Below are positions 47,805 to 63,985 of a DNA stretch of 64,000 nt, piece after piece. The notes under the pieces were generated by a model, which ran no database searches, was not told the DNA's origin, and was given only the letters and a program-made list of their open reading frames with translations. A program made the position numbers and the translations under genes. The stretch is from an uncultured archaeon (lineage in GTDB: Archaea > Thermoplasmatota > Thermoplasmata > Thermoplasmatales > Thermoplasmataceae): positions 1,064,457 through 1,128,456 of the forward strand of contig CP009479.1 of assembly GCA_000965745.1 (NCBI GenBank), in the 5' to 3' direction. Numbering within the stretch: position 1 is the stretch's first letter; every line of letters starts with the position of its first letter.

Positions 47805-48566
47805 TCACACCTTTTTGTATGGAGGAGGGTTGCCCTTCCTCCGGTCCTTAAGCCTGTATGAATCTCCTCTTATGTTCACCACGATGCTGTGGTGCAATAC
47901 TCGATCGAGAACAGCGGATGCCATTACCTGATCACCGAGAACTTCACCCCACTCCGAGAAAGACTTGTTCGAGGTGAATATGGTGGAACATTTCTCATAC
48001 CTGTACGATACCAGCTGGAACAGGAGATTTGATTCCTCCCTGTTCAACGGGAGGTATCCTATCTCATCAATGATCATGAGAGGATACCTTGCGTATTTCC
48101 TGAGCAGTGTGTTCAGGCTGTCTTTCATGAATTCCTTCCTCAGTGCCTGGACAAGCTTCACCGCTGACACATAGTACACAGAAATATCCGATTGCAGCGC
48201 GTGCATTCCTATTGCAACAGAGAGGTGGGTCTTCCCGACACCCGGAGGACCCAGGAAGACAAGGTTCTCCCTGTTGTGTATGAACCTCAGGGTCATCAGG
48301 TCATTGATCACTGATTTGTCTATGGACGGCTGAAAGGAGAGATCGAATTCATCCATGGTTTTTCTGAACGGGAATCCGGCGTACTTCAGCTTGGTATCAT
48401 ATCTCTTTGATCGCTTGCTCCTGACCTCTTCGGAAAGCAGGTGGTCAAGTACTTCCAGGACACTCTTATCATGCGCATTTTCCAGGTAGTTGTCAATGGT
48501 CTTTTCCATGACGTCAAGACCTAGGCTGGCAAGGTGCTCATGAACTCTTTCGTATGAGTCCATCAT
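47805..48566 (-). CDS. istB: IS21 helper ATPase IstB
   Basis: A 253-residue AAA+ protein of the DnaA/DnaC type. Walker A GPPGVGKTH follows NLVFLG, and LMIIDEIGYLPL is Walker B; the GDQVMASAVLDRVLHHS segment is sensor 2. It assists IstA in target selection. Overlaps the istA stop by 4 bp. Confidence 0.95.
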   Translation of the reverse strand: MMDSYERVHEHLASLGLDVMEKTIDNYLENAHDKSVLEVLDHLLSEEVRSKRSKRYDTKLKYAGFPFRKTMDEFDLSFQPSIDKSVINDLMTLRFIHNRENLVFLGPPGVGKTHLSVAIGMHALQSDISVYYVSAVKLVQALRKEFMKDSLNTLLRKYARYPLMIIDEIGYLPLNREESNLLFQLVSYRYEKCSTIFTSNKSFSEWGEVLGDQVMASAVLDRVLHHSIVVNIRGDSYRLKDRRKGNPPPYKKV

Positions 48567-49759
48567 GACACCTCCTCATACCTTGACAGATCGCGTTTCT
48601 CCACAAGCGTTTCGAAGGCTGTGAGGTTCTCAGACCTTATGGCCTTGAGAAGGCCTTCGAAGTGTTCCTTCTTTCTGGATATCCTTCCCGATCCAGGAAG
48701 GATGTCATGCTCCGCTATGACATGGGAATCAACCTGGATCCTCAGGGTCGATTCCTCCGTCACCAGTGCCTCCCTTCCTGCATAGATCCAGGGCACGCTG
48801 TATCGATTGCCGTTCCATGAGACATAGCAGTCCCTGGATACCTTGCGTGTTTCTTCTTTGCGGGTGAAGTATTCCGGTGCACGATCTACAGGGTTTAGCT
48901 TCTCCATTGCAAGGAGGTCCATTGGAATCTGGTGCGTTGTGCCATGTATCTGGGAATTCACTCGTTTAAGCCACTGCAGGCACTGTGCATTCATGTCATC
49001 AAGGGATGTGAATGTTCTACCGGCCCAGAAATTGTATCTCAGATACTTGATCGTGTTTTCGATCTTTCCCTTGGTCTGGGCACGATAGGGGAAGCACAGC
49101 CGCACGATGAATCCATAGTATTCCGAGAAATCCCTGAACTTCATGTTGAAGACGGATTCGGAGGCCTTTATCCTCCTCTCGAGGACCACTTGTTTCATGT
49201 TATCGAAGAGGATGGTGTCAGTGTATCCTCCAAAGAAGCGGAAGGCATTCATGTGCATTTTAATGACATTCTCCGTGGATATATCGGTGGTGAACTCGGC
49301 ATAGCGCATCCTTGAGTATCCCAGGATGATGCTGAATGCGTACAGCTTCTTCCTCTTTGCATCGATCTCGATGTGCCCGAACTCTCCGAAGTCCACTTGT
49401 GATTGTTTTCCAGGATCTGTCTCGTAACGGTACACAGCCTGTACCCTTCGATCCTTGCGGAGTGTGTAACAGTAATCTCCGAGGATTGTCCTTCCTCCGT
49501 CGTATCCCTGCTTGCGGATCTCCTCGAGTATCCTGACTGTGGACAGGTTATATCTGTCCACCAGCTCCCTGATACTGTCCCTGTAAGGATCGAGCTTCGA
49601 ACTTCTTCCAACGCGCGGCTTTGTGGTGGGAATACCGTCGCTCTTTGCATACTTCCTCACCGTCTTTCTGTCTATTCCCAGTTGCCTTGAGACCTCAGAT
49701 ATACTGAAGCCTTTGTCCAGCATGTTCCTTATCATTCTCCACCCCTCACTGCCGAGCAA
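48563..49759 (-). CDS. istA: IS21 transposase IstA
   Basis: A 398-residue DDE transposase with an N-terminal helix-turn-helix (GFSISEVSRQLGIDRKTVRKY), then the catalytic core with VDFGEFGHI (Asp), DNMKQVV (Asp) and TKGKIENTIKYL (Glu). Apparently intact, as is the partner gene, so the element may be active. Confidence 0.95.
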   Translation of the reverse strand: MLGSEGWRMIRNMLDKGFSISEVSRQLGIDRKTVRKYAKSDGIPTTKPRVGRSSKLDPYRDSIRELVDRYNLSTVRILEEIRKQGYDGGRTILGDYCYTLRKDRRVQAVYRYETDPGKQSQVDFGEFGHIEIDAKRKKLYAFSIILGYSRMRYAEFTTDISTENVIKMHMNAFRFFGGYTDTILFDNMKQVVLERRIKASESVFNMKFRDFSEYYGFIVRLCFPYRAQTKGKIENTIKYLRYNFWAGRTFTSLDDMNAQCLQWLKRVNSQIHGTTHQIPMDLLAMEKLNPVDRAPEYFTRKEETRKVSRDCYVSWNGNRYSVPWIYAGREALVTEESTLRIQVDSHVIAEHDILPGSGRISRKKEHFEGLLKAIRSENLTAFETLVEKRDLSRYEEVS

Positions 49760-49951: not shown

Positions 49952-51007
49952 CTAATCTACTTCCTCCTCTGGACTATCAGCCCGAACTAGTATGTCACTT
50001 AGCTGCTTGGTAATAAGACTCCTTCCAACCTTGTTGGATAGTGCGCTTATTGAGCCTGACCTCCAATCTAAAGAAATTGTCCCTCCACCAGGAAGCTGTA
50101 TATGTGTTCCAACTAGTGTATCCATTTGATTTTTGAAGCTCTGAGCATTATACTTCATCCCCTCATTTAGATCGCACCTTCTGCAAACAGCTGCAAAGGT
50201 ACCCATCATTACTTCAATTCCCATCGGTTTTGTGAGAAAATAACTCTTGTTGTTCCCCCAGGCATCTGGCCACAATTCAGAAATGGCTTTGAAGTAGTCT
50301 ATTATTATTCTTGCTTGGGCATCAGGGCTCTTACCTGATAATATTCCACCAGTTCCCACATATGGAGTTGTTACACCTTTCATTTTTTTATTAGTTACCC
50401 AAGTGCCCACTTCATCATCTCTCATTTTTATCTTACCAGCCAATGGAGAGTCTGAAATCGTGTTTAACTTAGAAACAACATCCATTGTAGTTGACTCTTC
50501 CTTAGGTAGTTCTTTAATCTGGTAATAAAGTGAAAGTGTCAGAACATCACTCACTCTTTGCTGCAAGCTGTTAATATCTGCAAATATCTTGCCCCTGAGG
50601 TCTAGATCAGCATTGTAGAGGGCTACTACTGGCAGATCAAAAACAATTCCATCACTGTGTTTAAACCCAGCAAGTCTATGCTGGCCGTCGAGTACATATG
50701 CAAATTTTCCAGATTCCTCAGGGAAAACCAAGGTCACATTCTTTCCGTTTGCTTGAGGATTTATTTTGACTTCGTCTGACAAGCTCACGACTATACCGTT
50801 TGGAAGAACGTTGTTTTCTTGCTTAATATACTTCCCAATCTCTCTAGCTCTTTTTTCGTTTAGGATTCTTTGAACTTCATCAGGATCGTCCTTGCTCCTC
50901 GGTGTTACATAACATATGCTGTTCAGAGTCTTTGAATCTAACGAGAACAGGTACATTTGAATTCCGTGCTGTCTCAGTACTTGAGCATCTATGCTAAATT
51001 TAGCCAT
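49952..51007 (-). CDS. DGQHR-domain protein (DndB-like)
   Basis: A 351-residue protein with the diagnostic DGQHR at 107-111 followed by FADINSLQQRVSDVLTLSLYY, as in DndB and other DGQHR proteins related to the ParB fold. In DNA-phosphorothioation systems DndB is a transcriptional regulator; in other islands the role is unknown. No dndCDE genes are present here. A strong GGAGGTG ribosome site precedes the ATG and the gene overlaps the HNH gene by 19 bp, so the two are coupled. Last gene of the defence-like cluster. Confidence 0.85.
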   Translation of the reverse strand: MAKFSIDAQVLRQHGIQMYLFSLDSKTLNSICYVTPRSKDDPDEVQRILNEKRAREIGKYIKQENNVLPNGIVVSLSDEVKINPQANGKNVTLVFPEESGKFAYVLDGQHRLAGFKHSDGIVFDLPVVALYNADLDLRGKIFADINSLQQRVSDVLTLSLYYQIKELPKEESTTMDVVSKLNTISDSPLAGKIKMRDDEVGTWVTNKKMKGVTTPYVGTGGILSGKSPDAQARIIIDYFKAISELWPDAWGNNKSYFLTKPMGIEVMMGTFAAVCRRCDLNEGMKYNAQSFKNQMDTLVGTHIQLPGGGTISLDWRSGSISALSNKVGRSLITKQLSDILVRADSPEEEVD

Positions 51008-51492
51008 GGAACACCTCCCTCCACTTTGTCAGATTTTTTCAAGTTGCAATCAGAACACAGAAACTGTAAATTGTTTGCTCTAGACGAACCACCCATACTG
51101 ATTGGAAAGATGTGATCTATATGAAGTTTCACTTCCGGAGGTCTTTTGCTGCATTTCTTACACACAGGCTCTGAAAACCACAACAATTTAAGGTAATCTC
51201 CAGTGTCAATGGACTCTCTATATTGTTTCCCCTGTGTTTTTTGCAGGCACGCCTCGTAGATCGTTTTAATTTGTTCATGACTCCATTTACGTCCAGTTAG
51301 CCCAGTCAAGATCTGGTCAAACTCTTTTAGTCTTTGCGGGCCTCTACGCTCCATTATCTCCTTGTAACCATCCTGCCGTATAATTTGTTTTACTAGCAAC
51401 TCATTCAACGACCATTCAATGAAGTCGTAGAACGATTCATTGTCCACTCCCAAGGAATCTATAAGCAGCGAAAGACGATCCATTCTTTCCAT
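50989..51492 (-). CDS. HNH endonuclease
   Basis: A 167-residue protein. The C-terminal third has a C-x2-C pair (VCKKCSKRPP), HIDHIFPISMGGSSRANNLQ and LCSDCNLKKSD, i.e. a zinc-stabilised HNH nuclease of the McrA/5-methylcytosine-nuclease type. The N-terminal 100 residues are helical and unassigned. It would cut DNA; translational coupling with the DGQHR gene suggests they act together, as nuclease and recognition or control factor. Confidence 0.88.
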   Translation of the reverse strand: MERMDRLSLLIDSLGVDNESFYDFIEWSLNELLVKQIIRQDGYKEIMERRGPQRLKEFDQILTGLTGRKWSHEQIKTIYEACLQKTQGKQYRESIDTGDYLKLLWFSEPVCKKCSKRPPEVKLHIDHIFPISMGGSSRANNLQFLCSDCNLKKSDKVEGGVPWLNLA

Positions 51493-51541
51493 TTTTCATT
51501 TAGTGAGACATTGTTAAAATATTTTGATCTGTTCTTTTAGC

Positions 51542-54199
51542 TCACAGAGAGTTAAGCACACTCCCTATGCTCTTCAATTTATCGAATGAATACATAACAT
51601 CGTTTCTAAACTCCACAGATCTATTTTTTCGATTTAGGCCATTAAAGAGGCTAAGTTCAAAGTTTTCAAGCACTCTTTTTTCATCGGCTAAGGAAACCCT
51701 GTGAATCAGCTTACAAAGTGAGGAAAGGGAGTTTACAGAGAAGTGTTTCCGTATTGCATTGTCCAATTTCTCCTTTTCTTCATTGGATAAATGACTCAAA
51801 ACCCCCAATGTGTACCCATCTTTTTTCCCTTTTTGACACAGCAAGTCTATCAAGTTAATGCGATCAATGGCCCGTATTATAATTGTCTTTACCGAAAGTT
51901 GGCTGCTCTCTTGACCTGATAGGGATGCGAGTATGCTGATTTTCTCGGCAGATGGGAAGTTTTCTCCTTTAATCAGTTTTCCAATGACGTCTACAACAGA
52001 GCTGTCATCTCTGACTCCAACAATTCTGGTAAAGCTCCTTGAAGGGACAAATCTGTAAAGATTCAGCGTTGTTGTGTTGTAAATGTCTTCGTGCCCATCA
52101 CGCAAGCATTCCTCCCTGTAGATTTTATCAAATCTCTCAGAGAACTCCTCAAAAGTCTCTTCTCTTGGTATCATTCCAAACCTAGTGTGCTCTCCGCTTC
52201 CCTGCTCCATCATTATATTGTTTTCTCTTCCAATTTTGTCTACTAAGGGTATCACATTTCCTTTACTGTTTGCATCTTTCGTCAAAATAAATGCGCTAAC
52301 CGTTCCATAGTCCAGTAGACTCTGTATATTAGATCCTAGAAGTCCATCTTCGAGTAACTCCTTGACGGACTGTTTAAAAATTTCCAGAGATGAAACATCA
52401 CTTATCTTATGATTTATCGCTTTTACATCCCTTCTTATTGAATCCATCATATAGCTGTCAAGACTTGTAATACTTGTGTACAAAACCCCCACAGACATTT
52501 TCTCTTTAAACGGTAGGAAGTACCTGTCATTTCTTGCAGCTGAATTGTCATATGTAGAAATTGCAGAAAATATTGTTTTATCAAGATCTTGCGATGAGAC
52601 GCGTTCGGTATCTGATAGAACTGCGTACTCATAAAGAATTCCAACAGTATCCTCGTGCGAAGAGAATTTCATGCATAGCGAATTGAGTATGGGACTTTGT
52701 ATTCTGAATAGATGTAATATCAGAAGGCTTTCACTAATTATGTTTGCAAAATTTGGAAGTTCACTAAGATAGGCACTCTTCAAAATGTCATATTCCTGTG
52801 TTATCTCGACCGCCAGAGCGACAACTCGTTCCAAGTGATCTGTTATCGAGTTGCACAGGTTGAAAATGTCATTGGTGTTTATCATTTCACTTTTTGGCAC
52901 TGCTCCAATCCTCTTCAAGAATTTTTGATAGTCTTTCGCAAATGACAAAACTTCTTCAAAGCTGGAAATCCTGACCTGAAATGTTTCAGGGGAGAAAGTG
53001 TGCACACCTTTTAGTATCTCAACCAGTTCTTGGGGACTTGAACTACTACGTATCACTCCTTCTTTCAGCATAACTTCGCATAACCTTTGGAGAAAGTCTT
53101 CATTTTTCTTTAACTGATTCCACCTCGAATCTGTTACAGATAAAGGAATAAAAGAAAGTAGGAAGTATTCTACTACCCGTTCTTCTGTTCCACAAAGTTT
53201 AGAGAGACGTTTCACGTATTCCGACTTCAATTCCGAAATTCCGCGATATTGGATTCCCCCGTCTAAGCTCCCAATTTTCCTGTTTGGAAAATAAGTCTGG
53301 ATCAAATTGTTGATTGAAGATTTCAGCTTTCTAATCTCGATATTCTCCTCAATTAGTGAAGAATGCAGTAACTCCAAATCAAAAGCTGTCATCCTAGACA
53401 TTATTGCTTTTAGTACGCTTTTTTCGAAGGGGATATCATACTCAAGCTTTATTGTTCCAGTATCTACAAGCATTTTCTGTAGATCGAGAAACTTCTCTAG
53501 ATCGCCCCTGATCTCTCCGTAAATTGTGTGGTTTTGCGGGAATGGATATTCCAAGTATATGAGCCTGAATATATCCTCAACTATCCCCATTGAGCTTAGT
53601 TTTTTGGCCATTTCTTCCATGAGGGCCAGCTCAATATCTGTTGGGCTCTCAAAAATATCAATTTGATGCTCGATGCCTGGAACTTCCAAGAGCCCATACC
53701 TTCTCAATACATGCTTAGTCTTGGATTTGAAGTCTTGGATGAGTAATTTGTGCTCACCTCTCCTCAGTGTCATGTCAACAAATTTGTCTAATTGCCTCAA
53801 GTTGTAGAGCATTGAATTTTTGAACTGTGACCAGCCGCTTCTAAGGGTGGGTACATCAAAATCTAGAAAGTTGGAATAGATTACTACAAATAATTCTAAA
53901 AACAAAGTGACAAGAGTTGCTGTAATTGCGCCTATTAAGTATTTTCGAAAGAAAAGATATGATACAGTTGTAGCCGCAAATAGAACAATCAATGTTGCTA
54001 TGTAGAATATTAGGCGGTTTCTATACTCTGCTTTAGCAATATTCAATGATCTTCCTTTTCTTTCCAGCTCTTCAATAATAGAATCTCCTCTGGCCGAATA
54101 TTGCTCAAGTTTCGATGGTAAGTCTAAAATTGACTCGTTCTGGTCGCCATCGGAGACGCCATTCGAACTATCTTCATTATTTCCACTTTCTTGAGTCAT
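51542..54199 (-). CDS. Large protein with two N-terminal membrane helices, unknown
   Basis: An 885-residue protein I cannot assign. The start is acidic and disordered (first ~30 residues), then a short coil and two hydrophobic helices at about 64-83 and 87-112 with a basic turn between (FFRKYL). The remaining 770 residues are soluble, helical and charged with no nucleotide-binding, nuclease or repeat motif I can recognise. Helix placement suggests the large part is cytoplasmic. It sits between the PLD-helicase gene (100-bp gap) and the HNH gene (49-bp gap) on the same strand, so it is a likely subunit of the same system. Confidence 0.75.
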   Translation of the reverse strand: MTQESGNNEDSSNGVSDGDQNESILDLPSKLEQYSARGDSIIEELERKGRSLNIAKAEYRNRLIFYIATLIVLFAATTVSYLFFRKYLIGAITATLVTLFLELFVVIYSNFLDFDVPTLRSGWSQFKNSMLYNLRQLDKFVDMTLRRGEHKLLIQDFKSKTKHVLRRYGLLEVPGIEHQIDIFESPTDIELALMEEMAKKLSSMGIVEDIFRLIYLEYPFPQNHTIYGEIRGDLEKFLDLQKMLVDTGTIKLEYDIPFEKSVLKAIMSRMTAFDLELLHSSLIEENIEIRKLKSSINNLIQTYFPNRKIGSLDGGIQYRGISELKSEYVKRLSKLCGTEERVVEYFLLSFIPLSVTDSRWNQLKKNEDFLQRLCEVMLKEGVIRSSSSPQELVEILKGVHTFSPETFQVRISSFEEVLSFAKDYQKFLKRIGAVPKSEMINTNDIFNLCNSITDHLERVVALAVEITQEYDILKSAYLSELPNFANIISESLLILHLFRIQSPILNSLCMKFSSHEDTVGILYEYAVLSDTERVSSQDLDKTIFSAISTYDNSAARNDRYFLPFKEKMSVGVLYTSITSLDSYMMDSIRRDVKAINHKISDVSSLEIFKQSVKELLEDGLLGSNIQSLLDYGTVSAFILTKDANSKGNVIPLVDKIGRENNIMMEQGSGEHTRFGMIPREETFEEFSERFDKIYREECLRDGHEDIYNTTTLNLYRFVPSRSFTRIVGVRDDSSVVDVIGKLIKGENFPSAEKISILASLSGQESSQLSVKTIIIRAIDRINLIDLLCQKGKKDGYTLGVLSHLSNEEKEKLDNAIRKHFSVNSLSSLCKLIHRVSLADEKRVLENFELSLFNGLNRKNRSVEFRNDVMYSFDKLKSIGSVLNSL

Positions 54200-54299
54200 T
54201 TTAGTAGATATTTCCTCTTTTCAGTGACAGATTCCTTAATACCAGGAAATTAGTCGTGAGTGTGAACATTAAGTCCTTCTTGGCTTCACAACATCTTGA

Positions 54300-57200
54300 T
54301 TAACTTGAAAGCAGACACCAGCAGACACGCTTAAGAGACAACTCCTTCCGAGATTCAGGCTCAGGTTTTTCAGACTGCGATAGGATAAGCTTTCTTGCCT
54401 TCTCTATGAAATTAGCATCATTTATTGCTTCGTATAATGATTTTACTAGTGTTTCTTTGGATGCAACGGTTCTGAACATTAGGGCCAGTTCCTCATCACC
54501 TTCACTTATCTTTGTGTAGATTTCTTTCCCTTTCTTGGAAAGGTTTGGAACAGTTGATGTGGAAGACCTTTTGATTCTATCACTCTCCAAAGAATGATTA
54601 GTGTCCTCCTTCAATTTCTTTAGCCTATCAACCAGGTCCTTGTATTCAATCTTCTTTCCCGATGAGTCTTTCTCTTTGTCTTTTAACAATATTCCAACGA
54701 TCTGCCCAGGGTCAGTTATGATGTTTTTTTCGCCCTCGAATCTTAGTCTCCAATAGTAATTGGCACCATCAGTAAAAAGGCAAAAGAGACCGTCTTTACT
54801 GTATTGTTTGAAAGCACCAATTCCTCGAGGAATGGATTTGATTCTTTCCTCCCCTAGGTCGTCAATTATCTCCATAAGTTGGTCTTTAGGATCATTTGTG
54901 AATTGTTCTATTTCCTTTTCCAGTTCGTTTAGCACAGAACTTTTTCCTTCAGCAATTAGTTTTTGCAAGGTACCAAAATCTTTAGGCTCAGCATCCTCCC
55001 CTAGAATGGGTGCATCAATTCCAACAGTATTCTTTATTCCTGAGATTTTCCCGTACAGCTTTCTCATTAGATTTATGAAATGCTGCAAAGAATTCGGATC
55101 TTCGGCATCATCATTCTCTTGCATGATGTTTATTAGATACACGAATTTGTGAACTGACCCCATTCTGTCTATTCTTCCAACCCTCTGTATTAGGACCACT
55201 GGATTCCATGGAAAATCATAATTAGCCACATATTGCGCATTTTGTAGATTTTGTCCCTCACTTAGTACATCTGTACTTATCAGGAGGCCACCATGTTCCT
55301 GAAATTGCTCGACGATCTTTGTGGTATCGGAGATTCTCCCCCTGTGATCCCTGCATATAGTTCCAGACGTAAGATATGTAAGTGGATAAAGATCCTTCAA
55401 TGAGTTATAGAGTAATTTTGCAGTTGCAGTGTACTGGGTGAATATCACAACACCGTTGGGCTCCTTTATTCCTGGAATCAATTCCTTCATTCTTTCCTGA
55501 AATTTAATCAGCTTCGCGTCTGTCGGGGGTATTAATTTCAGGATTACCTCTATTTGATCTAAATCCTCTTTACAGGCACTCAGGAAGTATTCCTTTTCCT
55601 TTTCTGTTAGCAGGCATCTTTCCTGAAGGTCCCTGTATTTCTCACTTTCGAATATATTGGGGGGCATATCCTCATCAAAATCGAATAGTGGATCGTCAGC
55701 CGCACTTCTAGGCAGGAAATACCCTTCTGAATTAGCAAACTCCATCGCTTTCTCCATGTACGATGAAATGGATTTCAGTGTTTCTCTGAAAGCGTCCTGG
55801 GAACTCTCAAGTCTCTTGAATAAGTTAAGCCTCACTATGGTTTTTACAAGTTCCTTGAGCTTCTCCTTTTTTTCTCTTTCCTTGAACTGTGAAATTGATT
55901 GCCCAGTGGGAAGTTTTAGCTCTGTAAGCTTTTCCACAGAAAACTCGTAGGGAGCAAAGTGTAATTTCTCGAGTTTGTAATCGAGGTCTTCATATTCTAT
56001 ATTGGAAGTGTATCTGTTGTTTTTGTTCGTGTCGATTACCCTTTCGGGAAATCCTTTCATGTCCTTTTCAAGCATCTGGGCAAATTTTCTTGAATGTCTT
56101 ACTACGAACCGTTCGAGGACCTGGGACATCTCAAACGATTTCCCCTCAAGAAGCAATTTCTGGCTGCTTCCAAAATACCCCTTAAGGGTCATACCTTCTA
56201 TATCCATTATTGATTCCTCCGACGCGAAAAGAGCGATGAGATTGTATAGATCCATTAGGCTGTTGTTGACTGGAGTGGCAGTTGCAAGGACCACTTCTGC
56301 GGAGTTGTGAAGTATCAAGTCCCTTAGAGCCTTATACCTGTTGGAGGATGAAGATTTGAAGTAATGAGCTTCGTCCACCATAATGAAGTTGTTTCCCTTG
56401 CCACTATATTTCTCCACAAAGTCATCTGGGTTTGCAGAAATATACTCTGAATTGATGCCTTCTATTTTTGTGTCGAGAACTTCCATCTCCTTTTCCCAAG
56501 TGGTTTCGAGGACACTTTTCGGGGCAATAAGCAATACTTTCTTTCCCTCCCTCCTTGCTTCATGAGCTAGAGCTATCATGGTTCTTGTTTTTCCCAATCC
56601 TGTGGAGTCCGCTATAACTACGCCCTTGTATTCTGAAAGTATCTTTCTGGCTTCAAGGACAGAAACCACTTGAAATCTCTTTAACCCCATCATCTTGATT
56701 TTCTCCGCCTCTTGAAGGTCTTTGTTGTAGTATTCGTACAACGCCTTTGAGGCTACTTCATACGGAGTATGGGTGATTGTATAATTCTTCAGGAAGCTAA
56801 TAAAATTGCTCTTGTAATCTTCTGCCGATTGCCATTTATCGTCAAACCAGGTTGTTATCTCCCTAAGCAACTCTCTATCTGTATTCTCAACGTTTAACTC
56901 ACTGTTTGTCTTCAAACCCGCATAGGTGAAGTTGCTGGACCCAACGATGCCAATTCCAGTCTTCGGGTTATCAAGACTTGGAGAAACTCCAACGTACGCC
57001 TTTCCGTGAAAGAATGGGCCATTCTTCTTTCTAACTTCTCGTTTATCGTTTGAAAAGTAGTTTACGGCATCCATCATAAGTGAGTAATACTCTGGATCAT
57101 CCTCCTGCTCCTCAAGCTCCCTGACAATCTCTTCCTCAAATGTTACACTTTCATCCTGAGGTCTGCCTAACAGAAATTTTAGTGGTTTATCCTCGATAGA

Positions 57201-57329
57201 ATCTTTGAGGAGACCAAACCCTCTAATATTGAAGTAAGCAGATGCAAATGCTAGTTCATTGACGCTTTTTAGTTCTTGATTGAGAGAATCCGCAAGCTTC
57301 TCCTTCCCGTTGTCAATTATCCTGCTCAT
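54300..57329 (-). CDS. PLD nuclease domain fused to SNF2-type helicase
   Basis: A 1009-residue protein. Residues ~1-190 form a phospholipase-D-like nuclease with one HKD-type motif: H108-G-K110, then GSSN at 130-133. The helicase core follows: Walker A in DSTGLGKT (241-248), DEAH at 319-322, LATATPVNN at about 348, and the second lobe with STDVLSEGQNLQ and RVGRIDR (motifs V and VI). The C-terminal 250 residues are charged and unassigned. Such PLD-helicase fusions occur in archaeal and bacterial restriction-like islands. Start overlaps the methylase gene by 17 bp, implying coupled synthesis. Confidence 0.9.
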   Translation of the reverse strand: MSRIIDNGKEKLADSLNQELKSVNELAFASAYFNIRGFGLLKDSIEDKPLKFLLGRPQDESVTFEEEIVRELEEQEDDPEYYSLMMDAVNYFSNDKREVRKKNGPFFHGKAYVGVSPSLDNPKTGIGIVGSSNFTYAGLKTNSELNVENTDRELLREITTWFDDKWQSAEDYKSNFISFLKNYTITHTPYEVASKALYEYYNKDLQEAEKIKMMGLKRFQVVSVLEARKILSEYKGVVIADSTGLGKTRTMIALAHEARREGKKVLLIAPKSVLETTWEKEMEVLDTKIEGINSEYISANPDDFVEKYSGKGNNFIMVDEAHYFKSSSSNRYKALRDLILHNSAEVVLATATPVNNSLMDLYNLIALFASEESIMDIEGMTLKGYFGSSQKLLLEGKSFEMSQVLERFVVRHSRKFAQMLEKDMKGFPERVIDTNKNNRYTSNIEYEDLDYKLEKLHFAPYEFSVEKLTELKLPTGQSISQFKEREKKEKLKELVKTIVRLNLFKRLESSQDAFRETLKSISSYMEKAMEFANSEGYFLPRSAADDPLFDFDEDMPPNIFESEKYRDLQERCLLTEKEKEYFLSACKEDLDQIEVILKLIPPTDAKLIKFQERMKELIPGIKEPNGVVIFTQYTATAKLLYNSLKDLYPLTYLTSGTICRDHRGRISDTTKIVEQFQEHGGLLISTDVLSEGQNLQNAQYVANYDFPWNPVVLIQRVGRIDRMGSVHKFVYLINIMQENDDAEDPNSLQHFINLMRKLYGKISGIKNTVGIDAPILGEDAEPKDFGTLQKLIAEGKSSVLNELEKEIEQFTNDPKDQLMEIIDDLGEERIKSIPRGIGAFKQYSKDGLFCLFTDGANYYWRLRFEGEKNIITDPGQIVGILLKDKEKDSSGKKIEYKDLVDRLKKLKEDTNHSLESDRIKRSSTSTVPNLSKKGKEIYTKISEGDEELALMFRTVASKETLVKSLYEAINDANFIEKARKLILSQSEKPEPESRKELSLKRVCWCLLSS

Positions 57330-60300
57330 CTGAATTCTCCCTCGACTTAAGTGGGCGTGCCGCCTTCAGCAATCTGTCCTCCACTAACTCAATAAATTCT
57401 GTGTAAAGTTGTTCCAATGAGAGATCGTCAATGCCAATCGCATTTAACGTATCGGCATCAAGCGCTTGTCTGTCCTTCATCTTTATTTCATCAAAGTAAA
57501 TTCGTACATCTCGATTCATTGTAATACCATGTTCCTTAACAGAATAGAGATTCAGATCTGGGACGGGCATCTGTTCATAATCTCCCACCATTATATCTGA
57601 TGCTCCCCCTCCCAATCGTCTGCAAAACAGCTCAACTGTCATTAAGAATAGAGTTGAATTCAGGTATTTCCAGATCCTTTCTGGATCCTTAACGTCCAAC
57701 GCATACAGCCGATGGTCACAAATAACTGGTTCGTGGGAGATGGGAATGTACAGTTTATCCATCATTGACATGGGTAAAAGTATTCTTACAGGCTTCAAAT
57801 CCGCAAGTTTAAACCAGGGCTTCCTGTTTTTGGTGGTTTCAAGACTGTTGTACCCTTTTACTTTTCTGCCTTTTCCTCTCACTTCAATTTCCTGCTGTTC
57901 ACCCCACCTTATGTATTGTTCAGTCAGGCTTCCGGGTTCGTGCGTGTAAAGACAGAGCGTGATAGGTTCTTTGATTACATAACTGCCAAGTTGTTTTGGA
58001 CTTCGAATTAAAGGCTTGACATCTTTCTTGTCTAAAACAAACCTCTCACCACCCTCATTCTCAATATAGGTGAGGTCTTGCTCCCTCAGCTCATTCTCAT
58101 TTTTTGCTTTAACGCCCGACTCATCGAATTTTCTTGGATTGGAATGATAGTCGGCTTCGTACTGTGATGAGACATCTTTCATGTAGAAGAATTCGTTTGC
58201 TCCCGTTGTGAATCCACGCTTTATTTCGGTAAAGTCACCCAGCTTGTGCGTAAGTTTAGGGTAGACCTCCTCCATGAACATTTTCGGAGCGCGAAGATAG
58301 AACCATTTCCCCGGTCTAAGATTGTATCTGACAAATGTTACATTGTTCCGAGCCTGTCGAGATAGGTAAGATTCCAGATAGACAAAATCTGTGTTCTTTG
58401 AAGAATCCGTCTCGGAACTGTAAACGAAGATTATGCTGTTTATATCTGCTCCAAATGTTCTATTTCGCTGCCCATATATGCCTATGAGTCTCGATGACAA
58501 CCTCTCTTGAATGTCAGCTCCATAACCGGTTTCAAGCCACTTATCAGAACTTATTACGGACACCACTCCATCGTCACGCAGCAGTTGAAGAGCCCTAACT
58601 ATGAAATACCCGTACAAATCCGATTTTTTATTGAGCTTGTGTGCGGAGTTATAATATTTTTTCTTATCCTCTGGTATGTTTTCCTGTCTAACATAAGGTG
58701 GGTTCATGACTATTATGTCTGCTTTGTCAGGCAGCCAGGACTCTATCATGCCTCCTTTGATTCCTGTCTTAATTTCCAGTTCCATCTGAATTTCGGCCAA
58801 TTCTCTCCTTAACTTTGCTCTTTCAGTGGAACTCGTGGCATTGGTAAACCTCTCTCTAATAAATTTCATTCTTTCGAAAATGTCTAAAGATTCGTCGCCT
58901 AACTTTGCTTGAACGCCTTGTGGTTTAACCAATGAGTCTCCTATTGTCACTAAGTTCATATCTAAGCTTCTAAGAACTTCAGGGTCCTTCTTATCTACAA
59001 TCATGGATAGCCACAGACGGAGTCTGGCAATCTCTATTGCTTCACCCTCAATGTCAAAACCAAAGAGGTTCTGAAGTATCTGATCCTTGTATTGGTTAAC
59101 GGAGGATTTCCAACCAACGGACTCGTCCAATCTTGTGAGAATTCCAATTATCTCCTGCATCATACCCAGAAGAAAGCCTCCAGAACCTACTGCTGGGTCC
59201 AGTACTCTGATACTTAGTAGTTTTCTTCTTAGTTCCAGAACATCTTTCTCACTCCTTTTTTCACTCAAGGTATTAAGGAGAATATCGATCCCATCTTTCA
59301 GAACTTTTTTGCCATCCAGCTGTTCAACTGGTTCAGACATTCCCAGAAAGTTTGACAGCGCCCTTCTGCAAATAAAAGATATTTCTTCAGGGGGAGTGTA
59401 GAAGGTTCCTTTCGACCCCCTCTCATTCTCAGGCAGCATATTCTCGAATATCGTTCCTATCATTGCAGGGTCTACGCTTACTTCAACGTCATTTGGCGAC
59501 AACTCATCTACTGTAAAGTTGTATTTGTTCAGGAATTCCCTTGCCTTGTAAAAAATGTCATTCATGGGTTCGCGCAATTCCTGCTCAATGCTTTTGGGGA
59601 AGTAGTCCTCCCTCTCAAACAGCGTTCCGTCTAGATATGGAAAACCTACATTGCCTTCTTTGCTTAGTGCCTCGTAAAATATCCAATTCAGTTCATCATA
59701 GTTTTTGACGGTGTCTACGAACTTACTATCTCCTTTCAGCCAACCCTTTTTCTGAAGGAAATAAAGGAACATTAACCTGCCCAGGAACCTCTGAGAATAC
59801 GCGTTCGTATTAGATCCAAGAACATCCTTGGTTACGCTATAAATTTCTTGATATATATCCCTGTATTCTTGGAAAAACGCCTCTCTTAACTTTTCATAGG
59901 GTAGAAATTCATTGTCGTATGCTTCTCTCAGGGCTTTCTTATCGGATATATACTTAAGTGAACTAAGAGCCTCGGAATCGGTCCTGTATATATTACCAGA
60001 GAGACTCAGAATTCTAGCTTTCGTGGAATCCTCCTCAACTGCTCCAGGAATAACTATTGAATAGCTATCTTGTCCATCTTCGAAAATAATCAACTGCCTT
60101 CCCTGCTGATGGGTTTTCCAGTATCGTGAAATTCTTGAGGCAGCTGCCCTGGTTGGCAATTCATCAAATTCAAGAAGTATTAAATCAAAAGTAAGAGGGT
60201 CTGAATAGAAAAGAATGCCTCTTTTGAGATTGACACCTGGAGGAATGGCTTTTCTCTCTCTTAGAAAATTCACAGGAATGTCTGTTTCCCCGGTAGGGTA

Positions 60301-60357
60301 GCCTAATTTTATCAGGCGTTCATGCCAGAATGCTCGTCCGAATTCTTCATTTGCCAC
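57313..60357 (-). CDS. Eco57I-like adenine-N6 DNA methyltransferase, large
   Basis: A 1014-residue methylase. SAM-binding LDPAVGSGGF lies at about 384-393 and the catalytic NPPYVRQ at about 551; between them is an insert typical of Eco57I/PglX-type enzymes. The C-terminal 300 residues (IKRGFTTGANEFFY, then the PRIL and YLNST segments) resemble a TaqI-type target-recognition domain. N-terminal 300 residues may carry a specificity or nuclease-like domain, but no clear PD-(D/E)XK set is seen. GTG start with GGTGAT upstream; overlaps the zinc-ribbon gene by 11 bp. It likely marks self DNA for the cluster. Confidence 0.92.
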   Translation of the reverse strand: MANEEFGRAFWHERLIKLGYPTGETDIPVNFLRERKAIPPGVNLKRGILFYSDPLTFDLILLEFDELPTRAAASRISRYWKTHQQGRQLIIFEDGQDSYSIVIPGAVEEDSTKARILSLSGNIYRTDSEALSSLKYISDKKALREAYDNEFLPYEKLREAFFQEYRDIYQEIYSVTKDVLGSNTNAYSQRFLGRLMFLYFLQKKGWLKGDSKFVDTVKNYDELNWIFYEALSKEGNVGFPYLDGTLFEREDYFPKSIEQELREPMNDIFYKAREFLNKYNFTVDELSPNDVEVSVDPAMIGTIFENMLPENERGSKGTFYTPPEEISFICRRALSNFLGMSEPVEQLDGKKVLKDGIDILLNTLSEKRSEKDVLELRRKLLSIRVLDPAVGSGGFLLGMMQEIIGILTRLDESVGWKSSVNQYKDQILQNLFGFDIEGEAIEIARLRLWLSMIVDKKDPEVLRSLDMNLVTIGDSLVKPQGVQAKLGDESLDIFERMKFIRERFTNATSSTERAKLRRELAEIQMELEIKTGIKGGMIESWLPDKADIIVMNPPYVRQENIPEDKKKYYNSAHKLNKKSDLYGYFIVRALQLLRDDGVVSVISSDKWLETGYGADIQERLSSRLIGIYGQRNRTFGADINSIIFVYSSETDSSKNTDFVYLESYLSRQARNNVTFVRYNLRPGKWFYLRAPKMFMEEVYPKLTHKLGDFTEIKRGFTTGANEFFYMKDVSSQYEADYHSNPRKFDESGVKAKNENELREQDLTYIENEGGERFVLDKKDVKPLIRSPKQLGSYVIKEPITLCLYTHEPGSLTEQYIRWGEQQEIEVRGKGRKVKGYNSLETTKNRKPWFKLADLKPVRILLPMSMMDKLYIPISHEPVICDHRLYALDVKDPERIWKYLNSTLFLMTVELFCRRLGGGASDIMVGDYEQMPVPDLNLYSVKEHGITMNRDVRIYFDEIKMKDRQALDADTLNAIGIDDLSLEQLYTEFIELVEDRLLKAARPLKSRENSDEQDN

Positions 60358-60529
60358 TTAAATCACCGTCAATTCTCTTTGGTATGGTGAATGATTTACC
60401 CTCTCCCACATATATATTAAAATTTTCTCCACATTCCGAACACTTGACTCTTTTTACGAGATAGGTTCCAAATTGCCATGACTTGAATGGTTCATTAGAA
60501 TTCTCTAGCCCGCAAGTTGGACATTTCAT
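60347..60529 (-). CDS. Small zinc-ribbon protein
   Basis: A 60-residue protein with two C-x2-C knuckles (KCPTCGLEN near the start and KCSECGENF in the middle), hence a single zinc ribbon, and a basic C-terminal tail. It overlaps the methylase gene by 11 bp, so it is translated just ahead of it and may assist its DNA binding or regulation. No specific family recognised. Confidence 0.75.
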   Translation of the reverse strand: MKCPTCGLENSNEPFKSWQFGTYLVKRVKCSECGENFNIYVGEGKSFTIPKRIDGDLSGK

Positions 60530-60561
60530 AAGTTGATCAAGAAGTGTGTATATAATAAATT

Positions 60562-60762
60562 TTCAATCAAACAGTTGCAGATTAGTAATCACTCCAATTT
60601 TTCAATAACCACCTTCCCGTCCTCCAGGTAAAAGCCAATTATCTCTTCAGCACTGAGGGCCAGTACATTCGTAACCTTACGTGGAACTGTAATCCTCAAC
60701 GAAGATCCTCTCTTTGAAACATGTGACACATCTATCAATTCTTTGTGCATCATTTGCTGCAT
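60562..60762 (-). CDS. Small AbrB/SpoVT-like DNA-binding protein
   Basis: A 66-residue frame (or 63 from the ATG at 60753). VSKRGSSLRITVPRKVTNVL followed by EEIIGFYLEDGKVVIEK is the swapped-hairpin AbrB pattern (K-R-G-S-x-R-I-x-V-P-K). It lies 32 bp before the zinc-ribbon gene and 60 bp after the nuclease gene on the same strand. It could be the transcriptional regulator of the cluster or a former antitoxin without toxin. Confidence 0.65.
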
Positions 60763-60822
60763 GATTGTTTGCGAACGAATGGAATTGGAACTTCAACTAT
60801 ACAGGATGCCGGTCAGCAAAGT

Positions 60823-61863
60823 TCACTCAAGTTCCAAGTCCGAACGGCTGAAACCAAACTTCTCCAACAGCTCGTATGATTTCATGACAATATTGCTCGC
60901 ACTAAGATTAAGCATAAGCCATAGTCCCCCATTGATCGGTTTTCCTCCAGGGAGAGGTTTCCCATTCTTATTGCGATTCTCTTTGTTGATAAGATATCTC
61001 TTGTATCCTGCTTCTATCGGAACATTATTTCTAGAGAGCTTTCCCTTCTCTACAAGCCAGTTTGCCACATTTATGAGAATCTGGTTTTGGGCACTAATTT
61101 TATACTCCCTGCCATTGAGGCGCATTTTGGTATAGTATCTGTTGCTGTAACTTGTCTCAATATCGTTGTGATCCATCACAGGAGGTTCTACAGACCCAGG
61201 AGACAATAATGACTCCGCTTTTTCCCTGAGAAAATCGCGTACTTCCTCAAGTTCATATTTAAACTGTGCAGATCTTGAGCTCAACTGTTCGATGAAATAA
61301 CTTGAGAAAACATTAGAAAATGCCTCTGGGTCTTCTATGAGTTCGTCCCACAGTGAATTTAGGTTATCGTTCTTAGCTACTAGTTCCTCAATCTTCATCA
61401 CGTTGTTCGGGGACAGACTGCTTAGATTTCTGAGCACTCTTTCAACAGAGTCATTCTCAATATTGACTCGCCATATGACTCTGTCAATATATGGCTTGAA
61501 CTCTTCATAGGACTTGAACAGAACAAAGTCGGAACCATTTGTTATGAGACCGTATCTAGATCCTACGTCGGATGAATACCTGGCAAGCTGCTTTATCTTC
61601 TGCATAGTATCCTCCCGCAGTTTCTTTGCCTCGAGTAGAATGATTTTTTTATCTTCTTGAAGGAGGGAATAGTCAGGAAATCCCCCTTCTCCAGTATTTT
61701 CTTCTGGTACAACTTCGTCCGGATTCTCGATATCCCATCCAAGCTCTCTTAGTATTGGGTCTATAATCTGTTGTCTTACAGCTGCCTCGTTCCTGTCATA
61801 CAGGTCTCTGTGGTCTTCTATTCTCTTCTTAATTTTCTCGACAAACATCTTATCAAATGACAT
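60823..61863 (-). CDS. HsdR-N-like PD-(D/E)XK nuclease protein
   Basis: A 346-residue protein. The first 160 residues match the N-terminal nuclease domain of type I restriction R subunits: RQQIIDPILRELGWD (about 30-44), D64 in GFPDYSLL and E78-A-K80 in IILLEAKK, then the QLARYSSDVGSRYGLITNG strand-helix pair. There is no helicase part; helicase activity may come from the PLD-SNF2 protein. The C-terminal half (about 225-346) is a separate unassigned domain. A GGGAGGAT ribosome site precedes the ATG. First gene of the cluster. Confidence 0.88.
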   Translation of the reverse strand: MSFDKMFVEKIKKRIEDHRDLYDRNEAAVRQQIIDPILRELGWDIENPDEVVPEENTGEGGFPDYSLLQEDKKIILLEAKKLREDTMQKIKQLARYSSDVGSRYGLITNGSDFVLFKSYEEFKPYIDRVIWRVNIENDSVERVLRNLSSLSPNNVMKIEELVAKNDNLNSLWDELIEDPEAFSNVFSSYFIEQLSSRSAQFKYELEEVRDFLREKAESLLSPGSVEPPVMDHNDIETSYSNRYYTKMRLNGREYKISAQNQILINVANWLVEKGKLSRNNVPIEAGYKRYLINKENRNKNGKPLPGGKPINGGLWLMLNLSASNIVMKSYELLEKFGFSRSDLELE

Positions 61864-61967: not shown

Positions 61968-62968
61968 TAGTGCGTTGCACAATTCAATAGGCATGTGTCA
62001 TCTCTCTCATGATGTTGTAGTACTGCACCTTCAGGGCGATCTCCTGAACTATGTAATCAGACCTGACAGCCTTGATCACCTCACCCATTGTTCTCTTGAG
62101 ACCTGAGAAATATATCTCTACATTCCACCGTTTCCCATACTGTACCGATTCCTTCCACCTCTTCTCAGATGTCCTTCTGATCTGTCTGACAACCTTAGCC
62201 CTTGCCGGTGATCCCCTGGATTGTGTGGAGGCGTTCTTCCTTGGCGGTATTATTGTGCCATGCCCAAAGTCATTGAATATCTTCTTTGAATCATATCCCT
62301 TGTCTCCGTATATCCTCAGTATTCTGTCCCTGACAGATTCCAGTATCTTTCTGCCCTCCTTCGCATCATGGACATGCTCATCGGTGATGGAGAAGGAGAG
62401 CACCGAGACATCATGTATTGAGATGACCGCATGGAGCTTGTTCCATCCTCTTCTGCGGCGATTCCATTTAGTACCCAGATAATCGCCCCTGATAGTGATC
62501 TTGAAACCGGTGGAATCAATGGCACAGTCCACCGGTTTCCCATCAGTATGGGGAAGAGTTGGCACGATCTTCCTGATCCTCCTGAATATGTTGGTATAGC
62601 ACACTGTCCTGATTCCCGAGATCCTGGAGAATACCCTGGCAATTCCTTCAAGAGACCTGAAGGGAACGCTGTACAGTGCTCTCAGCTTCGCAAGGAATGT
62701 TATGAACGCATTTGGTGTTTTGAAGGGATGTCCTCTCTTTCCTCTGTTGTTATCCTGCAGCAGGTTCTTCCAGTTCATGAGGAATGAAGGGTCCATGAGG
62801 TCTTCAACCCTGTTCACCAAGGATCGGTTGTACCTGTCATGCCTTCGGTTAGAACCAACCCAATATCTTCTTGTGCTTCTATTGCCTATTGCAGTGATTT
62901 GTTGTGGTGTCATAACAACAAATCGTTCCCCTGTATTTCATTATACAGGGGAATTATGCAACACACTA
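61968..62968 (-). mobile_element. IS5-family insertion sequence
   Basis: A 1001-bp element with near-perfect 18-bp ends: TAGTGCGTTGCACAATTC at the left and TAGTGTGTTGCATAATTC on the opposite strand at the right (two differences), flanked by 9-bp direct repeats. One transposase gene fills it. Inside the right end CCCCTGTAT/ATACAGGGG is a further perfect palindrome. Confidence 0.93.
61984..62913 (-). CDS. IS5-family transposase (DDE)
   Basis: A 309-residue transposase. CAIDSTGFKI holds the first Asp, YGDKGYDSK the second and YFSGLKRTMGEVI the Glu region (Y-x2-R-like of IS4/IS5 elements: RWNVEIYFSGLKR). A Lys/Arg-rich linker (PPRKNAS) precedes the last part. Intact frame. Confidence 0.92.
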   Translation of the reverse strand: MTPQQITAIGNRSTRRYWVGSNRRHDRYNRSLVNRVEDLMDPSFLMNWKNLLQDNNRGKRGHPFKTPNAFITFLAKLRALYSVPFRSLEGIARVFSRISGIRTVCYTNIFRRIRKIVPTLPHTDGKPVDCAIDSTGFKITIRGDYLGTKWNRRRRGWNKLHAVISIHDVSVLSFSITDEHVHDAKEGRKILESVRDRILRIYGDKGYDSKKIFNDFGHGTIIPPRKNASTQSRGSPARAKVVRQIRRTSEKRWKESVQYGKRWNVEIYFSGLKRTMGEVIKAVRSDYIVQEIALKVQYYNIMREMTHAY

Positions 62969-63208: not shown

Positions 63209-63985
63209 TCAATTTTTATGAGTCTTTTTCTTGGGCCTTTTCTTCTTCTGAACTCGGCGTACCATGTATATAGCTGATTTTGACCCATCCTCTCTGATGT
63301 CTTCCAACGAAAATATATCGGGCAGGTTTCTAACGAGGTCAGTTAATTTTTTAAACCCAAACGATCGTTGATCGAACCCAGGGTTTATCTTGCGCACAGA
63401 TTCACCTATACAGGTCAGATAAGCCTTTTCCTCATCCTTTTCACACATTTCGTAAGCTCTAAGCAACTGGTCAATTATTTCCCTGTTCTTTTCCTTGCTC
63501 CTTGGAGACTCTTCTAGAATCACTTTCACATCTTTTTCTGCCTTGGTTAAATTATCAGTGTAAACAAACACATTACATGCATTCACCAAGGAAGAAGAGG
63601 TTATATTTCTGCCAATTCCAAGGACAAATTTTCCACTTTCCTTCAGCCTTAAAACTAGTCTTGTGAAATCACTGTCACTCGACACAAGGCAAAAGGCGTC
63701 TATTTCGTTATTATACAGTATGTCCATCGCATCTATCACCATAGCAAAGTCCGAGGAATTTTTGCCGGAAAGATTGTGTATCTGAAGAACTGGAGAGAAT
63801 GCTTTCTCAAGAATAACCCTGTTCCAAGGGCTCATGCTCTGAATCGTGAAGTCACCATATATTCTTCTGATTACCACCTCTCCATATTTTCCTATCTCAT
63901 CCACAACAGAGTCTATGAGTTTATGTTCTGCGTTTTCAGCATCAATAAGCAGGGCAAATTTTAGCGATCTGTCAGATTCTTCCAT
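63209..63985 (-). CDS. NYN (LabA/DUF88) nuclease-like protein with OST-HTH domain
   Basis: A 258-residue protein. The N-terminal 150 residues form a PIN-like NYN domain: FALLIDAENAE (first Asp), DFAMVIDAMDILY and SSDSDFTRLVLRLKE (acidic pair), expected to cleave RNA. Residues ~170-245 resemble the OST-HTH/LOTUS domain (EIIDQLLRAYEMCE, then FGFKKLTDLVRNLPDIFSLE), an RNA-binding module often fused to it. The C-terminus is a lysine-rich tail. It lies at the island edge behind the defence cluster but is separated from it by the IS5 element. Confidence 0.88.
   Translation of the reverse strand: MEESDRSLKFALLIDAENAEHKLIDSVVDEIGKYGEVVIRRIYGDFTIQSMSPWNRVILEKAFSPVLQIHNLSGKNSSDFAMVIDAMDILYNNEIDAFCLVSSDSDFTRLVLRLKESGKFVLGIGRNITSSSLVNACNVFVYTDNLTKAEKDVKVILEESPRSKEKNREIIDQLLRAYEMCEKDEEKAYLTCIGESVRKINPGFDQRSFGFKKLTDLVRNLPDIFSLEDIREDGSKSAIYMVRRVQKKKRPKKKTHKN

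Follow-up and report, generated by a model that had tools for sequence, protein, structure and literature searches.

The stretch of DNA analyzed here, which we call the window, comprises 64,000 nucleotides of the genome of an uncultured archaeon of the family Thermoplasmataceae (contig CP009479.1, positions 1,064,457 to 1,128,456), assembled as a single complete 2.23 Mb contig. It carries a cluster of eight genes, among them those for an Eco57I-class N6-adenine methylase and a fused PLD (HKD)-SNF2 nuclease-helicase, the pair at the center of this analysis (Table 1). Open reading frame calls confirmed the eight genes, their shared strand and their order as given in an earlier sequence-only reading, together with overlaps of 11 bp between the zinc ribbon (ZnR) and methylase genes, 17 bp between the methylase and helicase genes, and 19 bp between the HNH and DGQHR genes. 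The remaining gaps are short: 100 bp separate the helicase gene from that of an 885-residue membrane protein (MEM885), 49 bp separate the latter from the HNH gene, and about 60 bp lie on either side of the AbrB-like gene. Profile searches likewise bore out the assignments of the HsdR_N, methylase, PLD-SNF2, HNH and DGQHR proteins. The AbrB and ZnR calls correspond to weak matches; the ZnR proved to be a real conserved family, and the AbrB-like protein has the weakest membership in the cluster. The defense-type, restriction-like character of the cluster also held, and none of the libraries used in the profile and PADLOC searches places the eight genes together in a single named system.

Table 1. 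Genes of the cluster, in order of transcription, and neighboring features (window coordinates).
Feature	Position	Strand	Product	Profile match
HsdR_N nuclease	60823-61863	-	346 aa	PF04313 HSDR_N 1.1e-12
AbrB-like protein	60589-60762	-	57 aa	weak PF04014 match 0.0027 (MazE)
Zinc ribbon (ZnR)	60347-60529	-	60 aa	weak Lar family match 0.0067
Eco57I-class N6-adenine methylase	57313-60357	-	1014 aa, GTG start	PF07669 8.4e-27
PLD (HKD)-SNF2 nuclease-helicase	54300-57329	-	1009 aa	PF00271/PF00176/PF13091; PADLOC 'HKD+Snf2' 2.2e-52
Two-helix membrane protein (MEM885)	51542-54199	-	885 aa	no family at cutoff
HNH nuclease	50989-51492	-	167 aa	PF01844/PF14279; PF14279 7.3e-13
DGQHR protein (DndB/DpdB-like, ParB-related)	49952-51007	-	351 aa	TIGR03187 1e-41
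IS21 istAB	47805-49759
IS5 transposase	61984-62913
NYN nuclease with LOTUS/OST-HTH domain	63209-63985

The cluster is AT-rich, with a GC content of 0.39-0.42 compared to 0.41-0.51 elsewhere in the window, and is flanked by two insertion sequences (IS), IS21 and IS5. Such composition and flanks are as expected of a horizontally acquired defense island. The gene for an NYN nuclease adjoins the IS5 element.

Using the helicase as query, we searched 390 genomes of the phylum and the GTDB species genomes, and then read the surroundings of the matches. Close relatives (43-86% identity) are present across five more genomes of the family, another Thermoplasmata bin, Thermogymnomonas, Nitrososphaeria, Calditenuaceae, Aigarchaeota, Hadesarchaea, Marsarchaeota and Bathyarchaeota. 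Upstream of the helicase gene, all 12 relatives with upstream sequence encode a methylase of about 1000 residues, as does the window, and the two genes are directly adjacent everywhere except at locus L045. They overlap by 4-20 bp in 10 of the 12 relatives: by 17 bp in six, as in the window, by 20 bp in one, and by 4-8 bp in three. The two loci lacking an overlap are L045, where one OLD-type gene intervenes, and L054, a broken copy. At the latter (L054:6077-12120, Thermogymnomonas acidicola), the pair is split into many frames, through either decay or poor assembly.

Methylase motifs I (DPAVGSGGFL) and IV (NPPY) are present in all 12 sequences compared, and in the window this adenine methylase with both motifs intact adjoins the PLD-SNF2 gene. 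The window's PLD-SNF2 protein is itself intact, retaining H108, K110, N133 and E144 of the nuclease as well as Walker A, DEAH, TATP and motif VI of the helicase. Wherever the relatives are covered, they retain the helicase motifs as well as H108, K110 and E144, and N133 is found in 11 of 12; the catalytic residues are conserved across six archaeal lineages. The conserved unit is the two-gene methylase/PLD-SNF2 pair, with the ZnR as a frequent companion and HsdR_N as an occasional one. An AlphaFold model of the methylase built from five sequences was unusable (mean pLDDT, the predicted local distance difference test score, of 52), save for a suggestion that the N-terminal domain is alpha-beta.

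The two ends of the methylase differ in their relationships. In the N-terminal part, the window and genome G110 are sisters (100/99) with 80% identity, and their helicases are 86% identical. The C-terminal specificity region, approximately residues 690-1014, groups G110 with four other family members at 72-75% identity, while the window sequence is only 53-58% identical to G110 or to those four. Forcing the window and G110 together in the C-terminal tree costs 65 log-likelihood units (approximately unbiased (AU) test, p = 1e-4), although the group tested was picked after the identities had been seen, so that the p value is not blind even if the effect is large. This pattern shows that the methylase C-terminus has been exchanged between relatives while the helicase stayed, the expected sign of swapped target recognition. 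Exchange of the specificity part with the motor staying put is typical of restriction-modification systems such as type I and type IIG.

We favor a restriction-modification reading. For it speak the conserved, mostly overlapping pairing of methylase and helicase genes, the intact catalytic residues, and the exchanged specificity region beside helicases that remain 86% alike, together with three observations detailed below: the MEM885, HNH and DGQHR genes are absent from related loci, the HsdR_N-X-ZnR-methylase order is repeated in G190, and HNH-DGQHR recurs in Priestia. The cluster probably harbors an ATP-dependent restriction-modification system, composed of the methylase and PLD-SNF2 protein and often led by a ZnR, in a defense island between two IS elements and accompanied by locus-specific accessories. 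As we envisage it, the methylase would mark adenine in the host's DNA at a specific sequence recognized by its C-terminal region. The overlapping gene encodes the PLD-SNF2 protein, which would translocate on unmarked foreign DNA and cut it with its N-terminal PLD nuclease. HsdR_N probably supplies a second nuclease and HNH-DGQHR may add another, while the Lar-like ZnR probably tunes restriction or modification; MEM885 and HNH-DGQHR would be accessories gathered in the same island. If this reading is correct, few ATP-dependent restriction-modification systems are smaller than the pair, which occurs across deep archaeal lineages of hot and acidic places and could change its target through a swap of the methylase C-terminus. 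It thereby lends itself to direct methylome and cleavage tests.

Besides the unblinded choice of the group in the AU test, two points weigh against this reading. PbeABCD, which includes a comparable PLD-helicase protein, blocked virus without visible cleavage of viral DNA (PMC6459918), so cutting by the pair is not certain. In addition, no obvious terminator is present in the 100-bp gap after the helicase gene, and the downstream genes may therefore be co-transcribed with the core.

One rival, raised as a possibility in the sequence-only reading, is that all eight genes form one undescribed defense system; MEM885 would then be its anchor or effector subunit. A single strand, short gaps, three overlaps, similarly low GC in all genes and the flanking IS elements would fit that proposal, as would a Shine-Dalgarno-like GAGG ahead of MEM885 where no TATA-like box rises above background (by inspection, and suggestive only). 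Recurrent synteny with the 885-residue protein, named in that reading as support for a system, was sought and not found: none of the 12 related pair loci with at least 2 kb of downstream sequence carries the MEM885, HNH or DGQHR gene. HNH and DGQHR moreover form a pair of their own elsewhere, and an AT-rich TATA-like box ahead of the HNH gene, weak and likewise suggestive by inspection only, may mark a separate unit. We consider a single eight-gene system very improbable.

Among the companions of the core pair, the 60-residue ZnR is a clear conserved family (A3) with the pattern CPxC...W...RYKC..C..FN.Y...(F/Y)TIPK. It precedes the methylase gene in the window and at three related loci (L019, L021 and L022); at L052, from Bathyarchaeota, it adjoins the methylase gene on the opposite strand. 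Across 26 genomes of the family we found 19 copies, of which 11 adjoin a restriction system, a share inflated by the inclusion of many genomes in which restriction systems were already known. The other eight lie among housekeeping genes, and the idea of a strictly restriction-linked gene was rejected on this ground. Four restriction architectures are adjoined by the family: type I, type III, methylase/PLD-SNF2, and a version bearing the RosmerTA-like antitoxin RmrA (methylase-RmrA-DUF4411-PLD/SNF2); the loci concerned are 60347-60529 in the window, L019, L021, L022, L028, L029, L033, L052, L148, L152 and L199. A scan of viral contigs with the ZnR gave one weak match. Since the protein scores 16.7 bits against the 39.6-bit cutoff of the Lar family (TIGR03655), the resemblance is weak and "Lar-like" serves as a lead.

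The HsdR_N protein is a stand-alone PD-(D/E)XK-type nuclease lacking a helicase, with its PD..EAK motif intact. A full-length relative with 45% identity occurs in genome G190, in the one-strand order HsdR_N - HNH_2 - ZnR - HsdM - HsdS, which parallels the window's HsdR_N - AbrB - ZnR - methylase. This G190 locus (L148:3287-9977) is a type I-like operon, and no full-length HsdR was recognized in the stretch read. In Marsarchaeota, a diverged HsdR_N gene, apparently without the catalytic glutamate, precedes the pair. HsdR_N is a probable accessory nuclease. Viral contigs scanned with HsdR_N returned no match, and those scanned with the helicase returned distant helicases only. The small AbrB/MazE-like protein is a possible local DNA-binding regulator; because the genome holds 12 other PF04014 matches, its proximity means little, and we rejected the adjacency as evidence.

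MEM885 has two N-terminal transmembrane segments, hydrophobic stretches at approximately residues 61-85 and 86-114, and a long cytoplasmic part that is probably helical. No relatives were found in 300 genomes of the class, 77 of the family and 293 of the phylum (overlapping sets), nor in plasmids, phages, viral contigs or the PDB; its orphan status holds within these sets, with no direct search made of bacteria or of archaea from other phyla. Three genomes of the phylum gave weak matches (E 3e-4 to 9e-3) that were judged to be due to chance: one is a short helix-turn-helix membrane protein, another a frame riddled with stops, and the third resembles an ATPase. A match to LptF/LptG (E 0.011) was rejected as a generic membrane helix, and a single-sequence AlphaFold model (mean pLDDT 34) was unusable. 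MEM885 is an orphan specific to this locus, and the one truly unfamiliar part of the cluster. It could be an unrelated passenger gene devoid of a defense role, as the failure of all searches to find a relative or a recognizable domain would allow. Its position between nuclease genes in a defense island, on the same strand and with gaps of only 100 and 49 bp, argues against this, and fast-evolving orphan genes are common in defense loci; we regard the passenger explanation as rather unlikely.

The HNH and DGQHR genes are a genuine pair in their own right, recurring outside the window. Plasmid pBEH1 of Priestia filamentosa encodes a 164-aa HNH protein (35% identity over 100 residues) followed after 5 bp by a DGQHR protein (27.6%) and then by a BglII/BstYI endonuclease. 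Other relatives of the DGQHR protein, often beside restriction genes, are partnered by multi-pass membrane proteins, by hypothetical proteins some 300 residues long, or by a GIY-YIG nuclease. The HNH nuclease is probably regulated by the DGQHR protein, which would act as a sensor of nucleotides or DNA by analogy with what has been inferred for its DndB relatives. The genome of the window holds a second DGQHR gene adjoining a type III system, at a locus (L152:3407-11833, ~399406-407832) with the order type III Mod/Res, ZnR on the other strand, DGQHR, and a Schlafen/AlbA-type gene.

On the plasmids Rhizobium pRiA4 and Acinetobacter pTR3_1, genes for small multi-pass membrane proteins lie upstream of DGQHR genes and overlap them by 1 bp. 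At L107:6450-6974 and L176:3277-3900, such membrane-protein genes with the 1-bp overlap lie beside BglII-type restriction genes, a possible DGQHR-membrane module.

These pairings raise the question of whether MEM885, HNH and DGQHR constitute a separate three-gene, membrane-linked defense module, with DGQHR as sensor, HNH as nuclease and MEM885 as membrane effector, that neighbors the core pair by chance. The arrangement would be compatible with our explanation of the core, and it draws on the 19-bp overlap in the window, the recurrence of the pair in Priestia and the recurrent pairing of DGQHR with membrane proteins. Against it stand the lack of any MEM885 relative in the searched sets, the absence of one upstream of the Priestia pair, and the dissimilarity between MEM885 and the small membrane proteins beside DGQHR genes. 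We view this module as a tentative possibility, on the unlikely side. Improbable, in our estimate, is the further proposal that the three genes form an undescribed membrane-linked effector module acting as a back-up when the adjacent restriction pair is overcome.

Among described systems, the methylase/PLD-SNF2 pair, which we read as a restriction-modification core, falls with the PADLOC 'HKD+Snf2' loci (C3a139, a label not traced to any paper), which share the frame of an Eco57I/N6 methylase and a PLD-SNF2 helicase. The 'HKD+Snf2' model is matched by the window's helicase (2.2e-52) as well as by the helicases of a second locus in the same genome and of Planktothrix. Several distant relatives, on plasmids and in the same genome, differ from the window in carrying 0.6-4.2 kb of variable genes between methylase and helicase, whereas the window has the 17-bp overlap and no cargo. 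The second system of this genome (L029:4044-12548, ~613043-621547) has the RosmerTA-like antitoxin and DUF4411 between its methylase and PLD-SNF2 genes, a layout repeated in G153, G206 and G162. Cargo at five further loci (L045, L167, L168, L169 and L170) includes an OLD-type ATPase/TOPRIM, a sigma-like protein, AbiEii, a nucleotidyltransferase with SLATT, and DUF262. This suggests that the methylase and PLD-SNF2 frame provides a swap slot for accessory effectors such as toxin-antitoxin-like genes, OLD-type ATPases and nucleotidyltransferases.

CglI and NgoAVII likewise combine a PLD-type nuclease, an SF2 ATPase and a methylase (PMC4267653, PMC5737866) and cut DNA with ATP (PMC4267653), an activity that would extend to the window only by inference. 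Their nuclease and ATPase are separate proteins, while in the window the two are fused and accompanied by an adenine-type methylase. Type III and type I systems share with the cluster a methylase with specificity, a separate translocating nuclease and the HsdR_N domain. The window, however, lacks HsdS, a full HsdR and a Res endonuclease domain, and its predicted cutter is PLD-SNF2; within the cluster, type I features are confined to an isolated HsdR_N domain, with no Methylase_S match.

PbeABCD, one of the CxC ABC ATPase/DndE systems, has a PLD (HKD)-helicase protein, and some versions pair with methylases (PMC6459918, PMC10853773), but neither a CxC ABC ATPase nor a DndE-like protein is present among the cluster proteins. 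DISARM and BREX share an SNF2 helicase resembling DrmD, a PglX-like methylase and the PLD nuclease theme. DrmA, DrmB (DUF1998) and DrmC are absent from the cluster and its immediate neighbors, PglZ and BrxC from the cluster, and the scores fall far below cutoff (122 vs 610 for DrmD, 67 vs 500 for PglX). An alternative for the core is that it works in the manner of PbeABCD or DISARM, with PLD-SNF2 stopping replication by binding to unmarked DNA or moving along it, and with no cleavage. The make-up of PbeA, the outcome of the PbeABCD experiments and the domain-level matches of the helicase to the DrmD and BrxH models speak for it. The partners required (DrmA/DrmB, DndC, DndE/ABC ATPase) were nevertheless not found here, the catalytic residues of the PLD nuclease are retained, and CglI and NgoAVII, themselves PLD systems, do cut DNA; we consider a non-cutting pair improbable.

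The DGQHR protein belongs to the same superfamily as DndB and DpdB, falling below both equivalog cutoffs (25.3 vs 328 bits for DndB, TIGR03233; 85.8 vs 300 for DpdB, NF041060). The cluster has no Dpd modification genes and no Dnd or Dpd partner genes, and since DndC (TIGR03183) has no match anywhere in the genome, the locus is, by this test, not one of phosphorothioation. Taken against these systems, the methylase/PLD-SNF2 pair is ordinary in its core, and unusual in its cargo-free overlap and in its accessories.

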